The notes under the pieces were generated by a model that was not told the DNA's origin, ran no database searches, and saw nothing but the letters and a program-made list of their open reading frames with translations. From a virus, in IMG/VR virus record IMGVR_UViG_3300044981_000338, positions 1-64,000 of that record: a DNA stretch of 64,000 nt; one strand, written 5' to 3'. This document shows, piece after piece, positions 8,812 to 18,241 of this stretch (position 1 is its first letter; each line of letters opens with the position of its first letter). The translations under genes were made by a program, and so were the position numbers.

Positions 8812-9459
8812 ATGCAAGCAAACAAGGTTCTTCTGGTGGCGGTACTTCTCTTGGTCAGTGGTTGCGGGGTTGCCGCGGGAGGCACGGGGGACAACCCGTC
8901 AAGCGGCAGCAGCGGTGGAAGTAGCAGCGGCAGCGTCGGGTCCGGCCAGTGCTGCTCGAACCCCGGTGCGGTGGGTCCCCAAGGTCCTGCCGGTCCGATG
9001 GGTGCCCAAGGTCCAGCAGGGGCAACCGGCGCTCGAGGAGCAACAGGAGCCACCGGTCCCCAAGGTCCCGCAGGCAGCCCCGGATCTGACGGCCAGGCCG
9101 GTGCGCAGGGTCCCGCGGGCGCCGCGGGGACGCCGGGCGCGGCGGGCGCGCAAGGACCGCAGGGTCCCGCCGGCGCGGCGGGCGCACCTGGCCTGCTCAC
9201 CAGCAAGGCGAGCATCTACACGGTGACGACCGTCAGCGTCGGTGGCACCAACGGCACGGGCACCGCCGCTGCGAGTTGCAAAGGTGTGAACGACATCCTG
9301 CTCAACGGCGGCTGCTCGGCGGAGGACTTCGGGGTGATCCTCTCGGAACCGACGAACAACCCTGCCGGGACGGCGAGCTACTGGGAGTGTGACGTGAACC
9401 CCGGCATCTCGCCGGTGCCCTCGGTCACGGCCATGGCGACTTGCATCACGGTCCCGTGA
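8812..9459 (+). CDS. collagen-like repeat lipoprotein
   Basis: A 215-residue protein. Residues 1-18 are a lipoprotein signal peptide with lipobox VSGC, the modified Cys being residue 18. A Gly/Ser linker follows, then 26 uninterrupted Gly-X-Y triplets (about residues 52-129) of the bacterial collagen type, rich in GPQ, GPA and GAT. An 85-residue C-terminal domain with several Cys (SCKG, GGCS, WECD, TCIT) may be disulfide-bonded. The start is fixed by AAGGAGG eight bases upstream. Known bacterial collagen-like proteins form trimeric stalks displaying a head; here the stalk would be lipid-anchored in the infected host envelope. It sits on the strand opposite the tape measure and carries its own promoter-like element, the layout of a moron. 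Function in phage biology is unknown; envelope modification or superinfection exclusion are inferences. Confidence 0.85.
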
Positions 9460-9477
9460 GGAAGAAAGGAGAACAAC

Positions 9478-9738
9478 ATGATCAGCATCCTGTGCGTGAG
9501 GTCGGTGGCGAAGGCCTTCTTGGCACTCGACCGTCCCCTCGAACGGCTGCACAGGCTCACCAGCCTGCTCGCAGGCACACGCGAAGTGAAACCGGTGAGC
9601 ATCGGAATCGTGGTCGACCGCGAGCAGCTCCATCGCATCGTCACACACCCGGACGTCGTCGCTGGGTTGGAGCTGGCCGAGACGCTACGGCGCAAAGGCG
9701 TGCTGCATGCCTGCTCTTCTTGTGGAGCGGTCGCGTAG
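9478..9738 (+). CDS. uncharacterised small protein
   Basis: An 86-residue protein preceded by AAAGGAG, 18 bases after the lipoprotein stop, so probably in one operon with it. The N-terminal 30 residues are amphipathic-helical. Residues 40-60 (VSIGIVVDREQLHRIV) look like a strand-helix unit, and the protein ends with a CSSCG pair. No membrane span or known domain is recognised. Confidence 0.6.
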   Translation: MISILCVRSVAKAFLALDRPLERLHRLTSLLAGTREVKPVSIGIVVDREQLHRIVTHPDVVAGLELAETLRRKGVLHACSSCGAVA

Positions 9739-9803
9739 CAAACACGAAGGGCACAAGGGAACAAGAACATAGGGGCGCACTGCCCACCGTAGGAGGCACG
9801 GCC

Positions 9804-10256
9804 ATGGAAGGACAAGAACCTGGACTGCGCGCGCAGCTCAGTGCGCAGCAGAGACGGCAGCTGGAGTACCTCGGACTGACCTCGGAGCAAAAGCCGAGAG
9901 AATCCGGGGATAAGAACAGTGGAAGGACAGTAGTTCCGACCACCCAAACCAAGAAGGAGGACATCCACATGGAAGCCACGACTCAGGAGACGAACAGGAC
10001 GCGCAACGAAGAGAACAGCAGCCACCCGGCGGTGGACGCCGTCGAGCGGAACACGAACCGCATGGCCAACGCCGCCGAGGCTCTGGTCGGCAGGTTCGAC
10101 CGGCAGCACAGCTTCAAGGCCGAGGCCATCCGCGTTGGCGCGACGGCCGTGGCCACGGGCATCGTGACCGGCCTCGTCGTCGTTGGCATGCAGGCGCTGC
10201 TGATGCCGGACACGGTCAAGGTCGAGCAGGTCGTTCCCGGCACGCCGAAGAAGTAG
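9804..10256 (+). CDS. long form of small membrane protein (alternative in-frame start)
   Basis: This frame has two starts, each with an excellent ribosome site. The ATG at 9804 follows AGGAGG by eight bases and would give a 150-residue protein. The second ATG at 9969 gives the 95-residue form annotated separately. The extra 55 N-terminal residues are polar and Gln/Arg-rich (LRAQLSAQQRRQLEYLG), probably helical and then disordered. The ATAAGA element at 9910 lies inside this extension, so the long form could come from read-through transcripts and the short form from the internal promoter. The long form may not be made. Confidence 0.35.
   Translation: MEGQEPGLRAQLSAQQRRQLEYLGLTSEQKPRESGDKNSGRTVVPTTQTKKEDIHMEATTQETNRTRNEENSSHPAVDAVERNTNRMANAAEALVGRFDRQHSFKAEAIRVGATAVATGIVTGLVVVGMQALLMPDTVKVEQVVPGTPKK
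9887..9921 (+). promoter_or_regulatory. GCAAAAG / ATAAGA-N4-TG element, copy 2
   Basis: GCAAAAG at 9887-9893 is followed after 16 bases by ATAAGA (9910-9915), then four bases and TG. The spacing matches copies 3 and 4 to within one base and resembles a -35/-10 arrangement. The likely target is the ATG at 9969, giving a leader of about 45 bases. Confidence 0.6.
9969..10256 (+). CDS. small single-span membrane protein
   Basis: A 95-residue protein starting at the ATG that follows AAGGAGG by eight bases. The first 55 residues are polar and helical (AVERNTNRMANAAEALVGRF). One hydrophobic span (about residues 58-82, VGATAVATGIVTGLVVVGMQ) is followed by a short polar tail ending in KK. An N-in or N-out single-pass protein of this size could be a holin accessory, an antiholin or a host-membrane effector; none can be chosen from sequence. 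It is bounded by promoter element copy 2 upstream and an intrinsic terminator at 10271. Its ribosome site is perfectly complementary over 12 bases to the predicted small RNA transcribed just downstream. Confidence 0.7.
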   Translation: MEATTQETNRTRNEENSSHPAVDAVERNTNRMANAAEALVGRFDRQHSFKAEAIRVGATAVATGIVTGLVVVGMQALLMPDTVKVEQVVPGTPKK

Positions 10257-10270
10257 GTCGGCTGGGTGAG

Positions 10271-10297
10271 AGTGCTGCCCTTCGGGGCGGCACTTTT
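10271..10297 (+). terminator. intrinsic terminator after membrane-protein gene
   Basis: A ten-base-pair stem (AGTGCTGCCC / GGGCGGCACT, one G-T wobble) closes a TTCG tetraloop and is followed by TTTTC. It lies 15 bases after the stop at 10256. This is a textbook factor-independent terminator for plus-strand transcription. Confidence 0.85.
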
Positions 10298-10319
10298 CAC
10301 TTAGCCTCTCAGGGGTTCA

Positions 10320-10354
10320 GCAAAAGCGCCTCACGCCGCGGCATAAGACTACTG
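10320..10354 (+). promoter_or_regulatory. GCAAAAG / ATAAGA-N4-TG element, copy 3
   Basis: GCAAAAG (10320-10326), 16 bases, then ATAAGA (10343-10348), four bases and TG. Unlike the other copies, no start codon with a ribosome site follows closely. The next strong signal is a terminator at 10414-10461, so this element probably drives a short non-coding transcript. Confidence 0.6.
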
Positions 10355-10461
10355 AAGGGTCCCACCGCTCCCAAAGGGCCTCCTCCTTCTTGTCTGCGCG
10401 GGATGCCTTCACTCGGCGCTCATCCCCCTGGCCGTGGGGGGTGGGCGCCGTTCTTTTTTTT
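10355..10461 (+). ncRNA. predicted small RNA with anti-ribosome-site segment
   Basis: This predicted transcript runs from just after element copy 3 to the T-tract of a strong terminator, about 105 nt. It contains the pyrimidine run CCTCCTCCTTCTTG (10379-10392). Of this, TCCTCCTTCTTG is the exact complement of CAAGAAGGAGGA at 9950-9961, the ribosome site of the small membrane protein gene. The 3' part is the terminator hairpin, the usual architecture of bacterial base-pairing RNAs. The island 10257-10558 has no convincing gene, which supports a non-coding role. Ribosome sites are purine-rich, so chance complementarity of 7-8 bases is expected; 12 is more than expected but not proof. Confidence 0.45.
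10414..10461 (+). terminator. strong intrinsic terminator
   Basis: A 15-base-pair stem (10414-10428 with 10436-10450, two G-T wobbles) with a seven-base loop is followed by TTCTTTTTTTTA. It lies between promoter-like element copy 3 and the gene starting at 10559, separating the predicted small RNA from that gene. Confidence 0.85.
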
Positions 10462-10558
10462 AGGGTCTGTGCCTACTGCTCCCCACTTGACATCTTCTTT
10501 TTTACCCTTGCGGTGCCGCGCGACAGAACGTACATCTACAAGAAGAAAGGAGGACGCC

Positions 10559-10822
10559 ATGAACACGATGACCACGGAACTCGACAACGACAGGTACGAC
10601 GCTGCCAACGAAGCCGTCCTCTTCTGTCTGACCTTCCTCTCGGAACGGGAAGAGCACACGGCTGCCAGCTGCATCGAAGGGTCACCGACCAGCGAACGGG
10701 TCGCATCGCATACAACCGCCTCTTGGCGGCGCACCGGTGCACACGTGACGTTGCGGCGAAGTACACGCTCAGCACCGCAATGCACACGGTCGAGCGCGCG
10801 CTTCACGTACAGGCTCTCCTAG
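10559..10822 (+). CDS. small helical protein with apparent internal frameshift
   Basis: The ATG at 10559 follows AAAGGAGG by six bases. The first 41 residues (MNTMTTELDNDRYDAANEAV onward to CIEG) look like an ordinary helical phage protein. After that this frame becomes Ser/Thr/Arg-rich and unlike protein. The -1 frame, from about 10680 to a stop at 10831-10833, continues plausibly with GRIAYNRLLAAHRCTRDVAA and ends VQALLAAS. A one-base change near GAAGGGTCA (10677-10685) would give a single 90-95 residue helical protein. No classical slippery heptamer is present, so a sequence error or real mutation is as likely as programmed shifting. Function unknown. Confidence 0.5.
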   Translation: MNTMTTELDNDRYDAANEAVLFCLTFLSEREEHTAASCIEGSPTSERVASHTTASWRRTGAHVTLRRSTRSAPQCTRSSARFTYRLS

Positions 10823-10834
10823 CTGCGAGCTGAC

Positions 10835-10870
10835 GCAAAAGTCTCCTCCTAGCGCGGCATAAGACCTCTG
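10835..10870 (+). promoter_or_regulatory. GCAAAAG / ATAAGA-N4-TG element, copy 4
   Basis: GCAAAAG (10835-10841), 17 bases, ATAAGA (10859-10864), four bases, TG. It directly precedes the gene at 10909 and is embedded between the arms of a perfect inverted repeat (10841-10854 and 10894-10907). Confidence 0.6.
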
Positions 10871-10907
10871 GCGGACACCAGAGTGTCTGCCGACGCTAGG
10901 AGGAGAC
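10841..10907 (+). promoter_or_regulatory. 14-bp perfect inverted repeat around promoter and RBS
   Basis: The left arm GTCTCCTCCTAGCG (10841-10854) is the exact reverse complement of the right arm (10894-10907), which contains AGGAGGAGA, the ribosome site of the gene at 10909. A smaller nested hairpin lies at 10870-10891 (GGCGGACA / TGTCTGCC, one wobble). In a transcript entering from upstream the ribosome site would be locked in a long stem. A transcript begun at element copy 4 would lack the left arm and leave it free. The repeat could also be a DNA operator. Confidence 0.6.
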
Positions 10908-10908
10908 C

Positions 10909-11589
10909 ATGCGTTGTTTTCAGGTCATGGAAGAAGTGAAGCAGGGCATCCCCGTACTCATCGGGAGTGGAGAAGAAGGGCACGTCGCCCCATACCTACC
11001 AACGCCACCAGGCTGCACCATGCGGCTCCTGCTCGACACGCAGATCACAGACTGCGTCAAGGACTGCTTCAACACCGATCCCGACTATCCCCACGCACTC
11101 AAAGACGTGAACGTCGAGTTCGGCGACGGCTTCATCCTGTTCAGAGGGAAGAAGAAGCACGGAAGGCTACACGACAGGCAGTGCTTGGTACGCGTAGTGA
11201 CTGCCGGGGGTGTTGGCGGCAAGGTAAGGCTTACCTCGAACTCGTACGTGACGCAGCTGAGAGGGCGCAAGGTTCCGGAAGTCCAGAGGGCGTACAACGC
11301 CTTCCCGGACGATGGTGTGCTCACCTTCTGCACAGCTGAAGAGCTCGAGCGCATCAACGAGGGGGTCGCTTACCTCGACGTCGTGCTCGTCATGCACAAG
11401 GGAGCGAGCTTCCGCATACAGCGCAACGGTGCACTGGAGGGGGCCAGTCCCTGGATGTCAATTCAGTGGACAGGTGAAGGTATCTTCATGGACAACCGTG
11501 ATGGTCGCTTCGACCAAAACGGCAACAGGGTCTACCGACGGTCGGCTGCTCCCTTAGTAGAGGCAGCTGTACCAGCCGCGGCTGAGTGA
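10909..11589 (+). CDS. uncharacterised 226-residue protein with regulated RBS
   Basis: The start is fixed by AGGAGG six bases upstream. The sequence is beta-rich and soluble, with no signal peptide or membrane span. Recognisable patches are LLLDTQITDCVKDCF (residues 41-55), VRVVTAGGVGGKVRLTSNSY and AEELERINEGVAYLDVVLVM. The C-terminal 20 residues are Ala/Pro-rich. I do not recognise the family. Its own promoter-like element and the inverted repeat covering its ribosome site suggest expression timed differently from its neighbours. The last 58 bases overlap the convergent gene 11532-11903. Confidence 0.65.
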   Translation: MRCFQVMEEVKQGIPVLIGSGEEGHVAPYLPTPPGCTMRLLLDTQITDCVKDCFNTDPDYPHALKDVNVEFGDGFILFRGKKKHGRLHDRQCLVRVVTAGGVGGKVRLTSNSYVTQLRGRKVPEVQRAYNAFPDDGVLTFCTAEELERINEGVAYLDVVLVMHKGASFRIQRNGALEGASPWMSIQWTGEGIFMDNRDGRFDQNGNRVYRRSAAPLVEAAVPAAAE

Positions 11590-11903
11590 GTAGGGTGGGG
11601 GGTGGAGCCGTTGGCTGCCCCCTTTTCCTTAGCCACCGGCTGGTCCTTCTTGGGAGCCGCCTTGCGGTCCGGAGACACACCCTCTATGCGCTTGCCGATC
11701 TGCTCGAGCAGCGCGCGCACGGTGCGCTGACAGGGCCCACAGAGGTCCTCGAAGGAGACGACGAACTCCTTGCCTTCAGCGTCCTGGAGTCTCGCCGAGA
11801 ACGCGTGGCTCGGAGAGGGAACCGTCTCCGGCTCCACCCCCGGCCGCGTCTCCACCCTCTGGCACCTCGAACACTCGATCTCCACGACTTGTTTCCGGGC
11901 CAT
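11532..11903 (-). CDS. small CxxC zinc-binding protein
   Basis: A 123-residue protein. Residues 7-17 carry CSRCQRVE and residues 53-57 LCGPC, two CxxC pairs spaced as in a split zinc ribbon around a beta domain (FSARLQDAEGKEFVVSFEDL). The C-terminal 45 residues are a Lys/Ala/Pro/Thr disordered tail. The ATG at 11903 has AAGGAG nine bases upstream and is preferred over the ATG three codons earlier. The gene overlaps 11776-12087 by 128 bases in another frame, unusually long. Similar short zinc proteins are common in large phages with unknown roles. Confidence 0.65.
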   Translation of the reverse strand: MARKQVVEIECSRCQRVETRPGVEPETVPSPSHAFSARLQDAEGKEFVVSFEDLCGPCQRTVRALLEQIGKRIEGVSPDRKAAPKKDQPVAKEKGAANGSTPHPTHSAAAGTAASTKGAADRR

Positions 11904-12087
11904 CGCCTTCATCTCCTTCGTTGTGCGTCTTGAAGTACAAGTAGGTCTTCAAGATCGCGATTTCGGATCGAACGAGTGGGTCGTTGCCCTTGGCGCGGAA
12001 CCACGTCTCGAACGCACGGATGTCTTCCTCGACCGTGCTCTCCAGCGTCTTGCCTTCTTCTACAGCTCCTACTACCACCGTCAGCAT
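11776..12087 (-). CDS. uncharacterised small protein
   Basis: A 103-residue protein whose ATG follows AGGAGG by seven bases. Residues 1-55 are protein-like (TVEEDIRAFETWFRAKGNDP, then SEIAILKTYLYF). The remaining residues overlap the next gene's frame and are Gly/Glu/Asp-rich, so the tail is probably non-essential or an accident of overlap. Divergent from the plus-strand gene at 12133, with a 45-base shared intergenic region that holds element copy 5. Confidence 0.55.
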   Translation of the reverse strand: MLTVVVGAVEEGKTLESTVEEDIRAFETWFRAKGNDPLVRSEIAILKTYLYFKTHNEGDEGDGPETSRGDRVFEVPEGGDAAGGGAGDGSLSEPRVLGETPGR

Positions 12088-12123
12088 CACAAATCCTCCT
12101 GCGGTTCGGGGATAAGAAGCATG
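12088..12123 (+). promoter_or_regulatory. ATAAGA-N4-TG element, copy 5
   Basis: CGGGG-ATAAGA-AGCA-TG with ATAAGA at 12112-12117. At the -35-like distance (17 bases) stands CACAAAT, only partly like GCAAAAG. It lies between two divergent genes, 16 bases before the ATG at 12133. Confidence 0.5.
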
Positions 12124-12132
12124 GAGGTCCCC

Positions 12133-12375
12133 ATGTTGAAAGGCTTTGAACTCTTCCACGTTCTCGAGACACTTGATGCGCAGGAGCGCGAAGCGACGGC
12201 CGCCCTACACCAATGCCAGGCGCGCCCACGGCGTGAGCGTCTACCGCAGCTGCAAGCGGCCATCGACAGGCACGAACTGGAGCTCGTCAAGGAGCTGAAT
12301 CGAGTGCGACGTCTGAAGGCCACGACCACGGTGCGGCACTCGGTGGCTGTGTGGTCTGAGGGAGGTAGTTGCTGA
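12133..12375 (+). CDS. small coiled-coil-like protein
   Basis: An 80-residue protein. The ATG at 12133 follows GGAGG by five bases and is preferred over the ATG at 12121, which lies at the expected transcription start. The sequence is strongly helical with heptad-like spacing (LETLDAQEREATAALHQC, LQAAIDRHELELVKELNR), resembling small DNA- or protein-binding helical hairpins. A terminator follows directly. Confidence 0.6.
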   Translation: MLKGFELFHVLETLDAQEREATAALHQCQARPRRERLPQLQAAIDRHELELVKELNRVRRLKATTTVRHSVAVWSEGGSC

Positions 12376-12377
12376 CG

Positions 12378-12413
12378 AATAGCGCGCGCCCGCGAGGGCT
12401 GCGCGCTATTATT
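12378..12413 (+). terminator. intrinsic terminator
   Basis: AATAGCGCGC-CCC pairs with GGG-GCGCGCTATT around a GCGA loop, with a single bulge, followed by ATTT. It lies two bases after the stop of the preceding gene and ends just before the acetyltransferase start. Confidence 0.75.
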
Positions 12414-12422
12414 TAGCCTCCC

Positions 12423-12845
12423 ATGCTTCGACAAGCACTCGACCGCGACATCCCAGGCATCCTCCGGCTCGAGGGGATGCTCTTCTCCAACTCGATGAGC
12501 GAGGAGATGATCGTGCGCGAGCTGCAGGTGGGGCAAGGCTTCGTGCTCGAGGCTGCGACGGAGAACCCCGTGCTCGGCTACATCCTGGTCCGAGACGACG
12601 GCTATCTGCTCGACATTACCCGGCTTGCCGTCGACCCCCAGCAGCAGCGTTCTGGTGTGGGCACCGAACTTCTTCGCCACGTGCTGGCAAAGAACCGGAC
12701 GACGGTTCTCACGGTCAAGAAGAGCAACCATCGCGCGTTCCAGCTCTACACGAAGCACGGCTTCGTGATCACGGGACACTTCATCGAGGAGCGCGCGTGG
12801 GCAATGCGCCGGGACGTGGAGCTTTTGGAGCGCCGAGCGGGGTGA
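12423..12845 (+). CDS. GNAT-family N-acetyltransferase
   Basis: A 140-residue single-domain GNAT enzyme, which transfers acetyl from acetyl-CoA to an amine. Motif A is visible at residues 66-83 (ITRLAVDPQQQRSGVGTE), with the Q/R-x-x-G-x-G/A pyrophosphate-binding loop. Residues 98-115 (KKSNHRAFQLYTKHGFVI) match the motif B helix and the 'Y-x-k-x-G-F' ending typical of RimI-like proteins. Substrate is unknown; phage GNATs may act on host proteins or aminoglycosides, neither of which is evident here. There is no ribosome binding site: the ATG follows a terminator hairpin by only 12 bases, so translation may be weak or leaderless. It converges on and overlaps the gene 12781-13017 by 65 bases. Confidence 0.85.
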   Translation: MLRQALDRDIPGILRLEGMLFSNSMSEEMIVRELQVGQGFVLEAATENPVLGYILVRDDGYLLDITRLAVDPQQQRSGVGTELLRHVLAKNRTTVLTVKKSNHRAFQLYTKHGFVITGHFIEERAWAMRRDVELLERRAG

Positions 12846-13017
12846 CCGTGTACGCAGCGCCACAGCCGCCGCACTTCATCACCTGCTTGCCGTCAGGCAG
12901 TCGCTGCGATGTGCAGAGGTTCTGGCACTTCATGCAACGCTGACGACCAACACCGCCCTCAGGTGTCTTCTGGAAGACGTTGCCTTTGTTGTCCTTGGTG
13001 CCGCGGATGATCTTCAT
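12781..13017 (-). CDS. zinc-ribbon protein
   Basis: A 78-residue protein with CMKCQNLC (residues 28-35) and CGGCGAAY (49-56), a four-cysteine zinc ribbon with a short beta turn between, followed by a Pro/Arg-rich tail. GGAGG lies six bases before the ATG, which overlaps the upstream stop by one base (TGATG). Such ribbons often bind nucleic acid or RNA polymerase, but nothing here identifies a partner. Confidence 0.65.
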   Translation of the reverse strand: MKIIRGTKDNKGNVFQKTPEGGVGRQRCMKCQNLCTSQRLPDGKQVMKCGGCGAAYTVTPLGAPKAPRPGALPTRAPR

Positions 13018-13439
13018 CAGTCGCCTCCGAAGATGATGGGCTCGCCCTCGTTCGCCGCCGCGATGACGTGCTCTTTCACGTGGGTCTTCTCGGCTTCCGC
13101 CTTCGCTTCGGCCGCCGCGAGCTCCTCGATGTACTCCTTGAGGTAGGCATTGAAGTTGATGGCGTTGGTCTCGGTGACAGGGATGTGCCCCTTGATACCG
13201 AACCGCAGCTCGTTGAACAGGTCCTGGGCCACCCGCCGCAGCACTTCTTGCTGCGCCTCGATCATCTGGATGCCGTCGGAGAAGGCCTTCGTGTTGGTGT
13301 TGAAGGCGTCTTCGAGCTGCTTCACGCGCTCGGTGAGCGCCTGCATGGCAGCGAAGACGCTAGGTTGATTCCCCGCCTGTGGGCGGTGGGGTCTTGCTGC
13401 GCTTGCGCTTCTTGCCTTCTTTCGGCGCTGCTGCGTCAT
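13017..13439 (-). CDS. coiled-coil protein with basic N-terminus
   Basis: A 140-residue protein. The first 35 residues are Arg/Lys/Ser/Ala-rich and probably disordered. Residues 38-85 (MQALTERVKQLEDAFNTN and on) form a coiled coil, and a second helical region lies at 105-125. The ATG at 13439 (after AAAGGA) lies inside the upstream gene, an 80-base overlap; the later Met near residue 38 is an alternative start. Function unknown. Confidence 0.55.
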   Translation of the reverse strand: MTQQRRKKARSASAARPHRPQAGNQPSVFAAMQALTERVKQLEDAFNTNTKAFSDGIQMIEAQQEVLRRVAQDLFNELRFGIKGHIPVTETNAINFNAYLKEYIEELAAAEAKAEAEKTHVKEHVIAAANEGEPIIFGGD

Positions 13440-13725
13440 TCGACTGGGTCCTTTGCTTGGGAACGAGTTCGTCTCGATGGATGGTGAGGAAGGCGTCGCG
13501 CTCATCGAGCTCCATGCCTTGCTTCTCCATGATGAAGTTCATGCAGTAGAGGATGGACTCCTGCGCCACGATACGGTCGGCGGGTTCCACCTGCTCACAG
13601 ATGACGGTCTTCTTCGCCTCGGTGTCACCGTCGACGTAGTCCGTCTTGATGATGCGCAGGATGTGCTCGAGGAAAGAGACGTTGTGCGCCCTGAACTTCC
13701 TCTTTTTTTCGTTGCTTTCACTCAT
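13360..13725 (-). CDS. uncharacterised small protein
   Basis: A 121-residue helical protein with charged ends (start MSESNEKKRKFRAHN, end rich in Lys/Arg/Pro/Thr). A four-base ATGA overlap with the upstream gene shows translational coupling. The middle (EPADRIVAQESILYCMNFIM) is amphipathic helical. No known motif seen. Confidence 0.6.
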   Translation of the reverse strand: MSESNEKKRKFRAHNVSFLEHILRIIKTDYVDGDTEAKKTVICEQVEPADRIVAQESILYCMNFIMEKQGMELDERDAFLTIHRDELVPKQRTQSNDAAAPKEGKKRKRSKTPPPTGGEST

Positions 13726-14384
13726 GCGGATAGCAGCGCCTTGAAGCGTCCCAGTAGGTTAGCACCAGAAGAGGTGTCCTTGATGATGTTGCGCAGAGGA
13801 TAGATGAAGACCTCGCGTTTGGCGCGCGCCACCGAGAGCTGCTCGCCCATCAACTGCTTGCTCTGCTCAAGGGTGGCGGCCTTGCGCAAGTCGATCTTCG
13901 GGACCTTCACGTAGATGTCCGCGTTGTGACCGAGGCGCACGAAGTACTTGTAAAGAAGCCGGGCCCAGTTGTCGGTCGACAGGCGTGCGAAGATCTCTCC
14001 ATGCACTTGCGTGCCCTTCCATACCTTCTGGCAGGAGGGGCAGACGAGGTGGCCGTAACCCTGCGACGCATCGGGGATGAGGCCCTGGCAGTCGCTCACA
14101 CCCAAAGTCTTACCGGGGCACAAGTAGATCTTGCAGTCGCCGCCGCCATGCAGCTTGGCGCCGCTCTCCCAGAAGGAGACCGCGCCGGCGTGGGCGGCCC
14201 TACCCGTACGTCGGCTGTTGAAGAACAGCTCGATCTTGTACTTGGCGATCTTGCGAGCGGCGAGCTCCTTCTCGAGCACAATCATTCGCTGCTTGAGCGT
14301 CTCAATGTCCTCCTCGGACAGAGTAGGGGCTGCCTCGATCGGGTTGTCCTCCCCGTACTTGACCTGTTGTGTGATGACCGGCAC
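13722..14384 (-). CDS. zinc-binding protein of unknown function
   Basis: A 220-residue protein starting with GTG, seven bases after GGGGAGG. After an N-terminal coiled coil (residues 20-50), a beta-rich centre carries Cys at DCKIYLCPG and DCQGL, then LVCPSCQKVW, a probable treble-clef or zinc-ribbon knuckle. The C-terminus is helical and basic. The layout resembles small phage nucleic-acid-binding proteins, but the family is not recognised. Confidence 0.6.
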   Translation of the reverse strand: MPVITQQVKYGEDNPIEAAPTLSEEDIETLKQRMIVLEKELAARKIAKYKIELFFNSRRTGRAAHAGAVSFWESGAKLHGGGDCKIYLCPGKTLGVSDCQGLIPDASQGYGHLVCPSCQKVWKGTQVHGEIFARLSTDNWARLLYKYFVRLGHNADIYVKVPKIDLRKAATLEQSKQLMGEQLSVARAKREVFIYPLRNIIKDTSSGANLLGRFKALLSA

Positions 14385-14387
14385 GGC

Positions 14388-14864
14388 TCAACCTCCCCGC
14401 TGCTTCATTGCGACAGCTTCGGGGCCCACCTTTACTGTACCAGAAGGCCCGGCGCCTCGACGGCCCCCCGCCGTGTTGTTCCTGTCCGAGTCGACACCGC
14501 CTAGCGGAATCTCCATGACCTCTGCGCGTGCCGAGGGAGAGGTCTTGATGATGTTCGCGATGTCCGCGTAGTGCCCCGCAATGCCCTCGCCTTGAAGAAG
14601 GATGCGCCAGGCGTACACCATACGGTTAGTTTCCTTCTTGATGAAGTACGACTTCGAGAGGTCGACCTTCCATGGTCGACCGCGCTCCATCGCTTCGAGA
14701 AGGCGCCACATCACGATCTTCCAGTTGTTGCCGTTCAGCCCAAGGCGGCCGTCAGGGATGCGCCCGAGAAGACGCAGCTGTCCCGGCGTCTCACTCTGCG
14801 CGACCACCTCGAACCCCACCTTGGCGCGTAGCGCCGCGATGAGCTCCTTAGCTGTGGTCGCCAT
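14388..14864 (-). CDS. uncharacterised protein
   Basis: A 158-residue protein whose ATG is preceded by GGAGG at short spacing. The first 75 residues form a compact alpha/beta unit (KELIAALRAKVGFEVVAQ, GNNWKIVMWRLLEAM). The last 40 are Gly/Arg-rich and disordered. It overlaps the upstream gene by 17 bases. Function unknown. Confidence 0.6.
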   Translation of the reverse strand: MATTAKELIAALRAKVGFEVVAQSETPGQLRLLGRIPDGRLGLNGNNWKIVMWRLLEAMERGRPWKVDLSKSYFIKKETNRMVYAWRILLQGEGIAGHYADIANIIKTSPSARAEVMEIPLGGVDSDRNNTAGGRRGAGPSGTVKVGPEAVAMKQRGG

Positions 14865-15333
14865 GGGCCTCCACCGTCGACGCCGTGCAGACCATGAAGG
14901 CCTTCTTGTCTCCGAAGAACAGCTCGCGTACGTCCTTGAAGAACACACGCTTGCCGTCTTCCTCCAAATACGAGAGGCCGTTGGTCAAGAACGTCTCGAT
15001 GGAGTCACTAACCCACGCGATGATGTACTCGCCGAGCGGGGTCTTGCCGTACGTGACGTCGACATCGGTGTCCTGCTGCCCACTGTCCAGATGGAGAAGA
15101 CCGGTGCGTGTCGTCGAAAGGTACTGACGAACGGCCTCGAGGTCGGTCTCCCGAACAAGGACGTACTCCTCGCTGTTCAATGCCGACACGATGAGCGACG
15201 ACGCCGTGTCAAGGTCGACCGGCTCCTCGGCTGCTTCCTCCCCCTTCAGCGCCGGGTTGAAGCGCTGCATCTCCTTGAGCATCGCGGGTGAGACGACACC
15301 GGCCTTGAGCACAGCCTTGGTCAGAGGGGTCAT
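14848..15333 (-). CDS. uncharacterised protein
   Basis: A 161-residue acidic protein with a helical N-terminus (TKAVLKAGVVSPAMLKEMQR) and a mixed alpha/beta body (GEYIIAWVSDSIETFLTNGL). It overlaps the upstream stop by four bases (ATGA). No known domain is recognised. Confidence 0.6.
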   Translation of the reverse strand: MTPLTKAVLKAGVVSPAMLKEMQRFNPALKGEEAAEEPVDLDTASSLIVSALNSEEYVLVRETDLEAVRQYLSTTRTGLLHLDSGQQDTDVDVTYGKTPLGEYIIAWVSDSIETFLTNGLSYLEEDGKRVFFKDVRELFFGDKKAFMVCTASTVEAHGDHS

Positions 15334-15872
15334 TCTTTCACCTGCTGCATGGCAACCTTGTAGCTCTTCTTCGTGTCGATGAGAGCCGCGGCCTTGGAAT
15401 ACGCCGCGCAGAGAATGAGCACGTGGTCCTCGATGAGGCGGTCCGTGAAGAAGGGTACGCCGAAAAACTCGTCATGCGTCACGCACTCGATGCCCGTCCA
15501 GCCCTTGTACCACTGCCACAAGTGCGTGTTGGCGCCGCCAACAAAGGCCACAGGATTCAGCTGGTCGACCGACATCCGATGAAAGAGCCGGCCGACGACT
15601 ACGGCAGCGTTCTCTTGCTCCGAGGGAATTTCCAGCACCTCGCTGTTTCGGATGATGGAGTGGGGCTGCAGCGTCTCGAAGTCGACCGAAAGAGGCTCCG
15701 ACTGCTCGCCGCCTCGAACGAAGCGCCGGTAGGTGACCTTGCCACGAGCATCGACCGAGACCGACTGCACCCTCGACTGCTTGAGGATGGCCTCGATGCT
15801 CTTGAGAAACCCGGTCACCCCTACGTTCTTGGGGACCTCGATAGACCCTTCGACTTCCTCGTACTCCGCCAT
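15330..15872 (-). CDS. uncharacterised protein
   Basis: A 180-residue protein with a beta-rich N-terminal half (VQSVSVDARGKVTYRRFV, FETLQPHSIIRNSEVLEI) and a helical C-terminal half. Its ATG shares one base with the stop of the upstream ribbon-helix-helix gene (TGATG). No motif recognised. Confidence 0.6.
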   Translation of the reverse strand: MAEYEEVEGSIEVPKNVGVTGFLKSIEAILKQSRVQSVSVDARGKVTYRRFVRGGEQSEPLSVDFETLQPHSIIRNSEVLEIPSEQENAAVVVGRLFHRMSVDQLNPVAFVGGANTHLWQWYKGWTGIECVTHDEFFGVPFFTDRLIEDHVLILCAAYSKAAALIDTKKSYKVAMQQVKE

Positions 15873-16051
15873 CAGACTTGCTCCTCGTGATCACGCACAC
15901 CGACGCGTCGCTCCATCGCATCGGACTCTACCAGCTGCTGCAAAAACTGCGTGATGACTGCGGTCAGAGTAGTGTGCCTGCGCTTCACGACGCGGGTCGC
16001 CTGCTCCTTGAGCCGGTCATCGATACGCAGCTGCAGCCGTCCTTCTCTCAT
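15872..16051 (-). CDS. ribbon-helix-helix (Arc/CopG-type) DNA-binding protein
   Basis: A short gene of 59 codons. Residues 4-12 (GRLQLRIDD) form the alternating beta strand of a ribbon-helix-helix fold. Helix one follows (RLKEQATRVVKRR), then a turn with HTTLTAV, and helix two (VITQFLQQLVES). The family dimerises and inserts the paired strand into the DNA major groove; members act as repressors or antitoxins. The start overlaps the upstream stop (ATGA) and the stop overlaps the next start (TGATG), so it is firmly embedded in the operon. No toxin-like partner is evident, so phage transcriptional regulation is the simpler reading. Confidence 0.7.
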   Translation of the reverse strand: MREGRLQLRIDDRLKEQATRVVKRRHTTLTAVITQFLQQLVESDAMERRVGVRDHEEQV

Positions 16052-16311
16052 CGCTCTTGGATGAACTTGATGGCGTCGAGGTAGTCGCGCAGTCCCTCAA
16101 TGGCGCTGTACTTCTCAACGATGAAGGCCACAATCTTGTCATGCGCCTCGTCGAGGACCTTGTCGCTCACCTCTTTGCCTACGAGTTCGGGTCCGATGCG
16201 CTCCTCGAGTTCTTTCTTGAGACTGTTGTCGAGGCCGATGAACGTCGGCGCCCACATGAAGTTGAAGGAAACGGTGAATGGTTTGGTCTCGGTGATGACG
16301 ACGAGTCTCAT
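16048..16311 (-). CDS. uncharacterised small protein
   Basis: An 87-residue protein with a strand-rich start (MRLVVITETKPFTVSFNF) and a helical remainder (EVSDKVLDEAHDKIVAFIVE). GGAGA lies four bases before the ATG and the start overlaps the GroES stop (ATGA). No family recognised. Confidence 0.6.
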   Translation of the reverse strand: MRLVVITETKPFTVSFNFMWAPTFIGLDNSLKKELEERIGPELVGKEVSDKVLDEAHDKIVAFIVEKYSAIEGLRDYLDAIKFIQER

Positions 16312-16637
16312 GCCGTCTCCAGTAGGTAAAGGATGTCGTCCTCGCGGATCATCCCGATGTCCTCCTCCAGCTGCTGCAAGACGCGCTGAATGGCTTTGCC
16401 TTGCTGGTGCTCGAGGTTCTCCCGAAAGAAGCAGACCCGGTCTCCTTGTTTGACGCCCATAGGGCGGCGAGCGTTCTTGCCGTAGAGCCAGCGGCCCGGA
16501 CCGACACGGAGAACCGTGCCCGTACGCTGCCTCTCGGCGCCGCTGCTGCTCTGAGGGAGGACAATGCCTCCTCGAGTCGTCTCAGGCAGCGGATCGAGGC
16601 TGACGACCAGCCAATCGAGAAGAGGCCTGACACGCAT
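16308..16637 (-). CDS. groES: GroES-type co-chaperonin
   Basis: A 109-residue protein with the GroES fold signature: RPLLDWLVVSLDPLPE at residues 3-18 (first strand, cf. 'iRPLhDRViVk'), a mobile-loop region ending in GGIVLP (24-29), the core strand TGTVLRVGPGRW, the 'v-x-x-G-D-x-V' turn in VKQGDRVCF, and a C-terminal MIREDDILYLLE like the 'E-S-D-I-L-A-I-V-E' end of cellular GroES. The ring cap of GroEL controls the folding chamber; T4 gp31 and some jumbo-phage versions replace host GroES to fold the capsid protein. The mobile loop is longer than in E. coli GroES, as in phage versions. The ATG at 16637 follows AAAGG. No GroEL gene is visible here, so the host chaperonin would be the partner (inference). 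Confidence 0.88.
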   Translation of the reverse strand: MRVRPLLDWLVVSLDPLPETTRGGIVLPQSSSGAERQRTGTVLRVGPGRWLYGKNARRPMGVKQGDRVCFFRENLEHQQGKAIQRVLQQLEEDIGMIREDDILYLLETA

Positions 16638-16638
16638 A

Positions 16639-17016
16639 TCAGCCTTTCGCAACGCCGGCGGCGGGAGTGGGTGTGTCCTCACCGAGGACGTCGACCGCAT
16701 CCTCCTTCGGGATGCTGGCCATGTTCTCGCCGGCGATGCGCTCCTCGAGCAGCTTCACCAGCCAAGAGTCGGCCGCGATCCTCTTCAAGGTGGCGGCGTA
16801 GTTCTCTCCGTTCGGGGCGCGGTGCCACACACCTCCGATGCGGTGCATGATCTCGATGTGCGTACGCCCATCGTCGTCGACCCACTCAACCGCGAACTCC
16901 TCGGACCGCGCGATGTTGGTCACGCGGCGGCTACCACCAGCCATCGCACCACGCTGACCTGCCGACTGCCCCACGCCCGTAGGACGACCCGCTACTCCAC
17001 CATCGTTTGCGAACAT
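16639..17016 (-). CDS. uncharacterised small protein
   Basis: A 125-residue protein; AAGGAG stands nine bases before the ATG. The N-terminal 30 residues are Gly/Arg-rich. The middle is an antiparallel beta unit (EFAVEWVDDDGRTHIEIM), followed by a helix (WLVKLLEERIAGENM). It ends one base before the GroES start. Function unknown. Confidence 0.6.
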   Translation of the reverse strand: MFANDGGVAGRPTGVGQSAGQRGAMAGGSRRVTNIARSEEFAVEWVDDDGRTHIEIMHRIGGVWHRAPNGENYAATLKRIAADSWLVKLLEERIAGENMASIPKEDAVDVLGEDTPTPAAGVAKG

Positions 17017-17750
17017 GACGTGCTCTCCTTCTCTTTCTTGTACTCGTCGTACTTCTTCTGGAGGCCTTCACGACTAATCCACGACCTGCCTCCATTCCAG
17101 GCGCGTGGGAAGTAGAACCTATCGAGCTTGGTTCGCTCGAGCAGGTATTCGGTGTCGATGTAACCGAGAGCCTGCTGGCACGTGACAGCGAAGCGCTCCT
17201 TGCACCTCTTCGGGCAGACGAAGATGGTCTTGAAGACCTGACCTGCGCGCTCAGGATCTGCGAGAAGACCGGGAGACGTGAACATCCCCCAGAAGCCGCA
17301 GCCAGGGCACTCGAGCTCGTGACCCCTGACGCGGAAGTAGACCACGTCACCGAACGAGTCAACGAGAGCCTCGTGTCCAACCTGGATGGGCGGCTGAATG
17401 CGCAGCTGCCGCTCTTCACGCACACGACGCACCGTGCTCGAAGGACTGTGGGTTGGGTACTCCATGGCCTGAATGGCCGCCACAGTGTCCTTGCGCAGCA
17501 GCTCCACAGTCTTGTCATCGAGCTTGTACGGCAAGAGGCCTTCTCGGTCCGTGCGTTGAAGTACTACGCCGACAGGCTGTTCTTCCGGGAAGCAGAGAAG
17601 AACCGAGGCGAGTTTTTGCATCATGCGCTTGAACTCGAGGTTCTCGAAGGTCCCTTCCTCGGTAACAAGGCCGTTCTCGTTGCTCTTGATGTCGCCTGTC
17701 GAGCGGTCTTCGGGCGTGCGTCTGTAGGAAAGCGTTACTTCCACGCTCAT
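16992..17750 (-). CDS. zinc-binding protein of unknown function
   Basis: A 252-residue protein. An N-terminal alpha/beta region is followed by a zinc module with ELECPGCGFW (about residues 144-153) and VCPKRCKERF (about 178-187), a split four-cysteine site around a beta hairpin. A basic C-terminus follows (YDEYKKEKE). Start overlaps the upstream stop (ATGA). Possibly nucleic-acid binding; family not recognised. Confidence 0.6.
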   Translation of the reverse strand: MSVEVTLSYRRTPEDRSTGDIKSNENGLVTEEGTFENLEFKRMMQKLASVLLCFPEEQPVGVVLQRTDREGLLPYKLDDKTVELLRKDTVAAIQAMEYPTHSPSSTVRRVREERQLRIQPPIQVGHEALVDSFGDVVYFRVRGHELECPGCGFWGMFTSPGLLADPERAGQVFKTIFVCPKRCKERFAVTCQQALGYIDTEYLLERTKLDRFYFPRAWNGGRSWISREGLQKKYDEYKKEKESTSCSQTMVE

Positions 17751-18241
17751 GAAGTCTTCTCCAGCTGCTTGCCTGCGTACGAGACGGGACGGGTGATGCG
17801 GTAGATGACCGCCCCCTGAGCTCCAGCACCGAAGTACACCCTGGTACCATCCCAGAGCTCGAGGGCGTCGATGATGGTGCGCTCCGCCCCCCGAACATCT
17901 GTTCCGATGATTCGGCGTACCGGCTGTTCTTTGAGCAGTGCCTGCACGGTATCGAGAGAGCAGTGGTGCTCGTCAGGAAAGCCGAGGCCGTTGAAGGCGG
18001 CGAAGGCCTCCTTCGGGGTTGCCTCCTGTACGGTCATGAGCGAGAGAACCTCCGCGTCAACCTCCCGCTCTTTCAGGCCACGGGCCGGCTTGCTGCAGAG
18101 CGGGCACAGATACTTGTCCGGCCAGAACTCACTGCGGGTGCCGACGAGCTGGTCAAGCTCGCGCACGCTCTCCATCGAGGCGACGCTTTCAGGCATCACC
18201 CGGATGGCAGACTTGCATGGTAGGCAGACGACGACGATCAT
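17747..18241 (-). CDS. zinc-binding protein of unknown function
   Basis: A 164-residue protein opening with a zinc-type module: VVCLPCKS at residues 4-11 and YLCPLCSK at 45-52. The C-terminal half carries beta strands (GTRVYFGAGAQGAVIYRI). It is translationally coupled to both neighbours by four-base overlaps. No known family identified. Confidence 0.6.
   Translation of the reverse strand: MIVVVCLPCKSAIRVMPESVASMESVRELDQLVGTRSEFWPDKYLCPLCSKPARGLKEREVDAEVLSLMTVQEATPKEAFAAFNGLGFPDEHHCSLDTVQALLKEQPVRRIIGTDVRGAERTIIDALELWDGTRVYFGAGAQGAVIYRITRPVSYAGKQLEKTS

Follow-up and report, generated by a model that had tools for sequence, protein, structure and literature searches.

In bacteriophage T4, inhibitory structures over the ribosome site have been reported for genes e, soc, 49 and I-TevI (PMC3014915), and hairpins of the same type are also found at I-TevII, I-TevIII, segB and Aeh1 mobE (PMC2988022). 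In the case of e and I-TevI, the structure forms in the long transcripts arriving from upstream, whereas translation takes place from the transcripts that begin at a late promoter and do not include the 5′ strand (PMC3014915, PMC2988022). For e, it is in long early transcripts that the SD and the start region are paired, and in relatives of T4 the late promoter of this gene is located within the DNA coding for the 5′ side of the helix (PMC3014915). The original prediction, made for an inverted repeat from an uncultured virus, had pointed to a comparable logic used by T4 at some genes, and these publications show that this comparison was correct.

The window analyzed in this work is the first 64 kb (64,000 nucleotides) of this uncultured virus record (IMG/VR IMGVR_UViG_3300044981_000338), which totals 170,766 bases. 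By analogy, the locus described here would work like the class formed by T4 e and I-TevI. As in the leader of the T4 lysozyme gene e, a promoter-like element sits where an internal RNA, given its putative start, drops the 5′ strand. However, the T4 late promoter is TATAAATA, whereas the element found here is bipartite (GCAA / GGnATAAGA) and does not correspond to a T4 late promoter. Furthermore, the gene and its protein are unrelated to gene e by any search made, and the phage has a fused β-β′ RNA polymerase. With its different promoter, and in a phage that has a polymerase of its own, the locus falls outside the T4 late regulon. With I-TevI, I-TevII, I-TevIII, segB and Aeh1 mobE, it shares a hairpin predicted to hide a ribosome site; in those systems, the gene is an embedded one and an internal late promoter yields transcripts devoid of the upstream strand. 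Their hairpins serve homing endonucleases, whereas the gene found here belongs to a conserved family and occupies a fixed genome place. Another difference is that anti-SD stretches are also present here within further spacers, those of promoters that carry this same element.

Promoters of other phages encoding β/β′-type polymerases carry TATG at the start (phiKZ) or follow AACA-N6-UR (AR9) (PMC7598289). Like these two phages, the present one combines a polymerase of this type with a phage-specific promoter-like element, but neither TATG nor AACA-N6-UR resembles this element, which consists of two boxes at sigma-like spacing. Overall, the T4 gate is known at several separate genes, whereas the present, probable one has been kept in six phages despite an almost complete change of its arms. 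It would be housed in the spacer of a promoter class for which we found no description, in phages with a cellular-type RNA polymerase of their own.

The virus record and its RNA polymerase

A single chain encoded in the record joins the β and β′ parts of a cellular-type RNA polymerase, i.e., Rpb2 and Rpb1 domains (Table 1), and the last bases of the window are the 3′ end of its gene. A relative of this fused polymerase is present in 19 of the 20 related records, which were collected via the DNA polymerase. The record also encodes a family-A DNA polymerase, a DnaB helicase and a primase, and PHROGs revealed two genes of tailed phages, one for the large subunit of the terminase and one for a head protein; the Pfam terminase model PF17289 gave no match. 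A tailed-phage lineage known to possess β and β′ homologues is mReC (multi-subunit RNAP-encoding Caudovirales) (PMC7481178). The record carries the sequence-recognisable homologues of both subunits that characterize this lineage, a likeness that lies in the polymerase domains. No Pfam match to sigma-70 region 2 or region 4 was found in the record, and the search of a phage collection at the DNA level with positions 10300-18000 of the window did not give any match.

The inverted repeat and the promoter-like element

The original prediction was that a perfect 14-base inverted repeat places an anti-SD arm upstream of the fourth copy of a promoter element and an SD arm just before the ATG at 10909. 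Our analysis recovered both the repeat and this layout (Table 1): the two arms are complementary at 14 of 14 positions and are separated by 39 nt. This pair is the sole perfect inverted repeat of at least 14 nt with a gap of at most 60 nt in the whole record, compared to a mean of 0.2 expected by chance (first-order Markov resampling). The predicted fold of the RNA from 10820 to 10930 reaches −64.9 kcal/mol (z −8.3), a stability equaled by none of 200 shuffles, and no part of the window reached the gathering score of an Rfam family.

Table 1. Features of the locus, of its surroundings and of the RNA polymerase gene (positions in the window; the polymerase gene extends beyond it).
Feature	Position	Strand	Evidence or remark
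Promoter copy 3 and ~100-nt unit without evident gene	10340-10458	+	Strong terminator at 10414-10450 plus T-run
Small upstream gene	10559-10833	+	tblastn of G001 and G003 proteins; conserved in relatives
−35-like box GCAAAAG	10835-10841	+	Consensus GCAA ~17 nt 5′ of the −10 box
Anti-SD (left) arm GTCTCCTCCTAGCG	10841-10854	+	Occupies the spacer between the promoter boxes; same-place equivalents in G001, G003, G004, G005 and G009
Extended −10-like element GGCATAAGA (promoter copy 4)	10856-10864	+	Between the two arms
Putative transcription start T10869 / G10870	10870	+	Y/G signature across 133 elements
9-bp 5′ hairpin GGCGGACAC-CAGA-GTGTCTGCC	10870-10891	+	Predicted fold of the internal transcript; starts exactly at the putative first base
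SD (right) arm CGCTAGGAGGAGAC	10894-10907	+	Contains the SD AGGAGGAG at 10898-10905; immediately 5′ of ATG 10909
Putatively controlled gene, 226 aa	10909-11589	+	ORF; homologues in G001, G003 and G004 at 38-41% identity
Fused β-β′ RNA polymerase, 2147 aa	63966-70409	−	Rpb2_6 (E 2.6e-59), Rpb1_2, Rpb1_5; intact active-site motif NADFDGD
Arms at the six loci			GTCTCCTCCTAGCG, 14 bp; CTCCTAGT, 8; ACCTCCCA, 8; CAGCCTCC, 8; CAGCTCCTAAC, 11; ACCTCCTTCGCAC, 13

Such a strong GC-rich stem could in principle be a terminator or an attenuator on either strand, and the minus strand has TTTT after the stem, as read from the −35-like box. However, the plus strand is devoid of any T-run, which led us to reject a terminator or attenuator on this strand, and the site is absent from the terminator-like sites. 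As for the minus strand, its run amounts to just four T and is TTT at the loci of G001 and G003, at a varying distance from the stem. This explanation is thus extremely improbable.

The element located between the arms follows the consensus GCAA-N16-GGnATAAGA-N4-YG and is a real, oriented signal located 5′ of genes. The motif GGnATAAG[AG] occurs 133 times in seven related genomes, compared to 14-22 times for permuted controls, and 59% of these copies are located within 100 nt 5′ of an SD-bearing ATG (background ~3.5%). The plus strand of the window harbors five copies (8783, 9907, 10340, 10856 and 12109) for 0.39 expected. The element was found in 14 of 16 related records, and the reversed pattern is nearly absent. 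The alignment of the 133 copies on ATAAGA revealed (i) GCAA at −23 to −20 from its first A (G in 79 copies, C in 80, A in 105 and A in 109), (ii) a pyrimidine at +10 (start −1) in 121 copies, and (iii) a G at +11 (start +1) in 118 copies. Since the GCAA box and the Y/G step correspond to the geometry of a two-box promoter, which places the start at G10870, we infer from these sequence patterns that the element is a promoter from which RNA would begin at this base.

A copy of the element is divergent from the RNA polymerase gene in six of the seven genomes, on the opposite strand and 31-78 nt from the start of this gene, and the fused polymerase of the phage itself would be the natural candidate for reading the element. 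No sigma-70-type promoter was found in positions 9000-13000. A search of the open-access literature did not retrieve any description of a GCAA / GGnATAAGA promoter, which may have been described elsewhere. As a putative promoter, the element supplies a concrete start-site signal for these uncultured phages. It should be added that a TTGACA, a T-rich stretch and a CTTGCGG are common to G000 and G001, 5′ of the small upstream gene, which is devoid of the element (position 10486 of the window; L067), and possibly constitute a second promoter class.

Alternatively, the hairpin could be an RNA processing site, the element between its arms being cut by RNase III or another nuclease and the cleavage then freeing the SD. 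According to the fold, a cut between the arms, within the long helix, would likewise yield a product with its SD free. However, the element is present at many genes that lack the long helix, the remote GCAA box, whose spacing is fixed, and the Y/G start signature fit a promoter, and the arm sequences are not conserved. We therefore consider processing to be unlikely, and a promoter remains the preferred interpretation of the element.

Predicted access to the ribosome site

The folding of the RNA with and without its upstream arm had been set beforehand as a check of the claim that only transcripts coming from upstream would hide the ribosome site. The two forms differ as this claim supposed: the predicted probability that the SD is unpaired is 0.0001 in read-through RNA compared to 0.989 in RNA starting at G10870. 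In the predicted fold of the long RNA, the SD pairs with the upstream strand, which forms a 14-bp helix over it. When the 5′ end is located well upstream, the predicted opening of the SD costs 15-17 kcal/mol; this cost decreases when the 5′ end moves inside the left arm and is about 0 past it. The direction is the same at all six loci studied (see below), the effect being the weakest in G003, where the predicted gain is small (from 7.2 to 4.8 kcal/mol). The short 5′ hairpin of the internal transcript is nested between the arms and could therefore form in both RNA forms; comparable 5′ hairpins are predicted in relatives.

Taken together, the locus is probably a promoter-dependent translational gate. 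RNA coming from upstream, for example that of the gene at 10559-10833, would carry the left arm, which would fold the SD of the gene starting at 10909 into the 14-bp helix, so that this gene would not be translated from read-through RNA. In contrast, RNA begun at G10870 would be devoid of the left arm, would carry the short 5′ hairpin and would expose its SD. As the left arm lies between the two boxes, in a spacer whose sequence is not conserved, it would have a dual role: this DNA would act as a spacer during initiation at the promoter, whereas its copy in read-through RNA would act as a lock. The net effect would be to tie the synthesis of the protein to the internal promoter. From the modelled folds, we infer that read-through and internal RNA differ in their translation. 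The interpretation put forward in the original prediction, i.e., an uncoupling of this protein from the upstream transcription, is thus well supported at the level of sequence.

Conservation in related phages

The repeat was also looked for in relatives, as had been proposed with the original prediction. Syntenic loci of five of them (G001, G003, G004, G005 and G009) share the layout and carry arms whose sequences differ but still pair (Table 1). At all six loci, a GCAA-like box comes first and is followed by the anti-SD arm, which occupies the spacer, by GGnATAAGA and the putative start, and then by the 5′ hairpin, the SD arm and the ATG. Because the arms of the six loci lie in different registers, a permutation test of their pairing was chosen over a column-by-column analysis of covariation. 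With complementarity counted in fixed windows of 16-17 nt, the summed complementarity of the true left and right arms amounts to 61 bp, compared to a mean of 39 bp over the 720 possible pairings of six left with six right arms, and solely the true pairing reaches 61 bp.

These data bear on whether the palindrome could instead be a DNA operator or a cruciform, in which case the binding of a protein would control the promoter and the overlap with the SD would be incidental. The palindrome exactly flanks the −10 box, and the operator of T4 I-TevI overlaps its late promoter (PMC2988022). However, a protein site would be expected to conserve its sequence, whereas the arms of the relatives differ and yet pair, and the SD is always within the right arm. 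The maintenance of pairing despite the change of sequence, together with this constant position of the SD, points to an RNA function over the SD rather than to a DNA site for a protein, and makes an operator very unlikely.

The downstream gene and its neighbours

Besides the homologues listed in Table 1, the protein encoded downstream of the right arm has a remote homologue in G005 (hhalign, E 5e-9), and the G009 protein matches the family by its N-terminus and position only. Searches of Pfam, PHROGs, NCBIfam and solved structures with this protein did not give any match, and its AlphaFold model, which has a moderate confidence (pLDDT 66), has no convincing structural match.

The small upstream gene is an ORF of ~85-95 aa in several relatives. 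It lacks an element of its own, and any RNA carrying it would therefore enter the hairpin gene. An alternative is that the ribosomes ending the translation of the upstream gene open the helix, in which case the two genes would be coupled and not uncoupled. In its conserved frame, the upstream gene ends at 10833, 8 nt 5′ of the left arm, and its stop is also located 5′ of the arm in relatives. However, a stopped ribosome covers only ~12 further nt, and one stopped there would not extend beyond the first 4-5 of the 14 bp of the helix. Coupling is thus very unlikely, and a gate that uncouples the two genes remains the favored reading. In relatives, the small upstream gene forms one continuous frame, whereas in the present record it changes frame through a −1 shift around 10681, which may be a sequencing error, decay or a programmed frameshift.

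Further upstream, units similar to the ~100-nt one of promoter copy 3 are found in G001 (37866) and in G003 (143258, minus strand). In each of these three phages, the unit follows a promoter element ~550 nt 5′ of the hairpin gene, carries a C-rich anti-SD block near its 5′ end and ends in a terminator; it is a candidate small RNA. An action in trans of the short RNA at 10340 on the hairpin gene is not supported, the SD of this gene ranking only 21/154, 56/132 and 3/114 among the duplex targets of the three genomes. The first gene of the plus-strand island, at 8812-9459, encodes a collagen-like protein with a lipoprotein-like start; a collagen-like gene is also found near the hairpin gene in G004.

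Wider occurrence of putatively hidden ribosome sites

Our survey included 852 SD-bearing starts from seven genomes, 96 with the element and 756 without it. A stretch located upstream and pairing over at least 8 bp with the SD region was found for 10 of the 96 starts with the element compared to only three of the 756 others (p = 4.6e-8), a comparison that takes in the loci that suggested it, the pattern having been noticed in the same genomes. In all 10 of these element-bearing starts, the element lies between the arms. Furthermore, an anti-SD word is present in the spacer of 20 of 83 promoters, compared to 5.3 expected and to a maximum of 13 in 500 shuffles, whereas a control window located further upstream (−41 to −26) gives six. 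For the short-leader genes with an anti-SD spacer, the SD-opening cost is ~4 kcal/mol lower when the RNA starts at the element. It decreases by ~2 kcal/mol at promoters devoid of an anti-SD spacer, and therefore some of the decrease simply reflects the weaker folding of a shorter RNA.

Six more distant records that had been held out weakly agree in direction: pairing over 8 bp or more was found for two of 35 starts with the element compared to two of 569 without it (p = 0.018), and pairing over 7 bp for three of 35 compared to nine of 569 (p = 0.027). Because the pattern was discovered in the genomes on which it was counted and the held-out agreement is weak, we grade a genome-wide rule below the gate proposed for the single locus; only for the close relatives do we consider such a rule likely. 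We give slightly less than an even chance to anti-SD spacers being a general device, in which many genes would be untranslatable in read-through RNA and each protein would follow its own promoter. If so, the proteins of this lineage with a fused β-β′ polymerase would track their own promoters despite leaky operon transcription. Our results suggest that the lineage as a whole may have a strategy of protecting its genes from read-through. In G004, the regions upstream of positions 147854 and 149020 carry terminator T-runs directly followed by AGCCTCC, which is able to pair with the SD of the gene that comes next, an arrangement that looks as if the leak of the terminators were silenced too.
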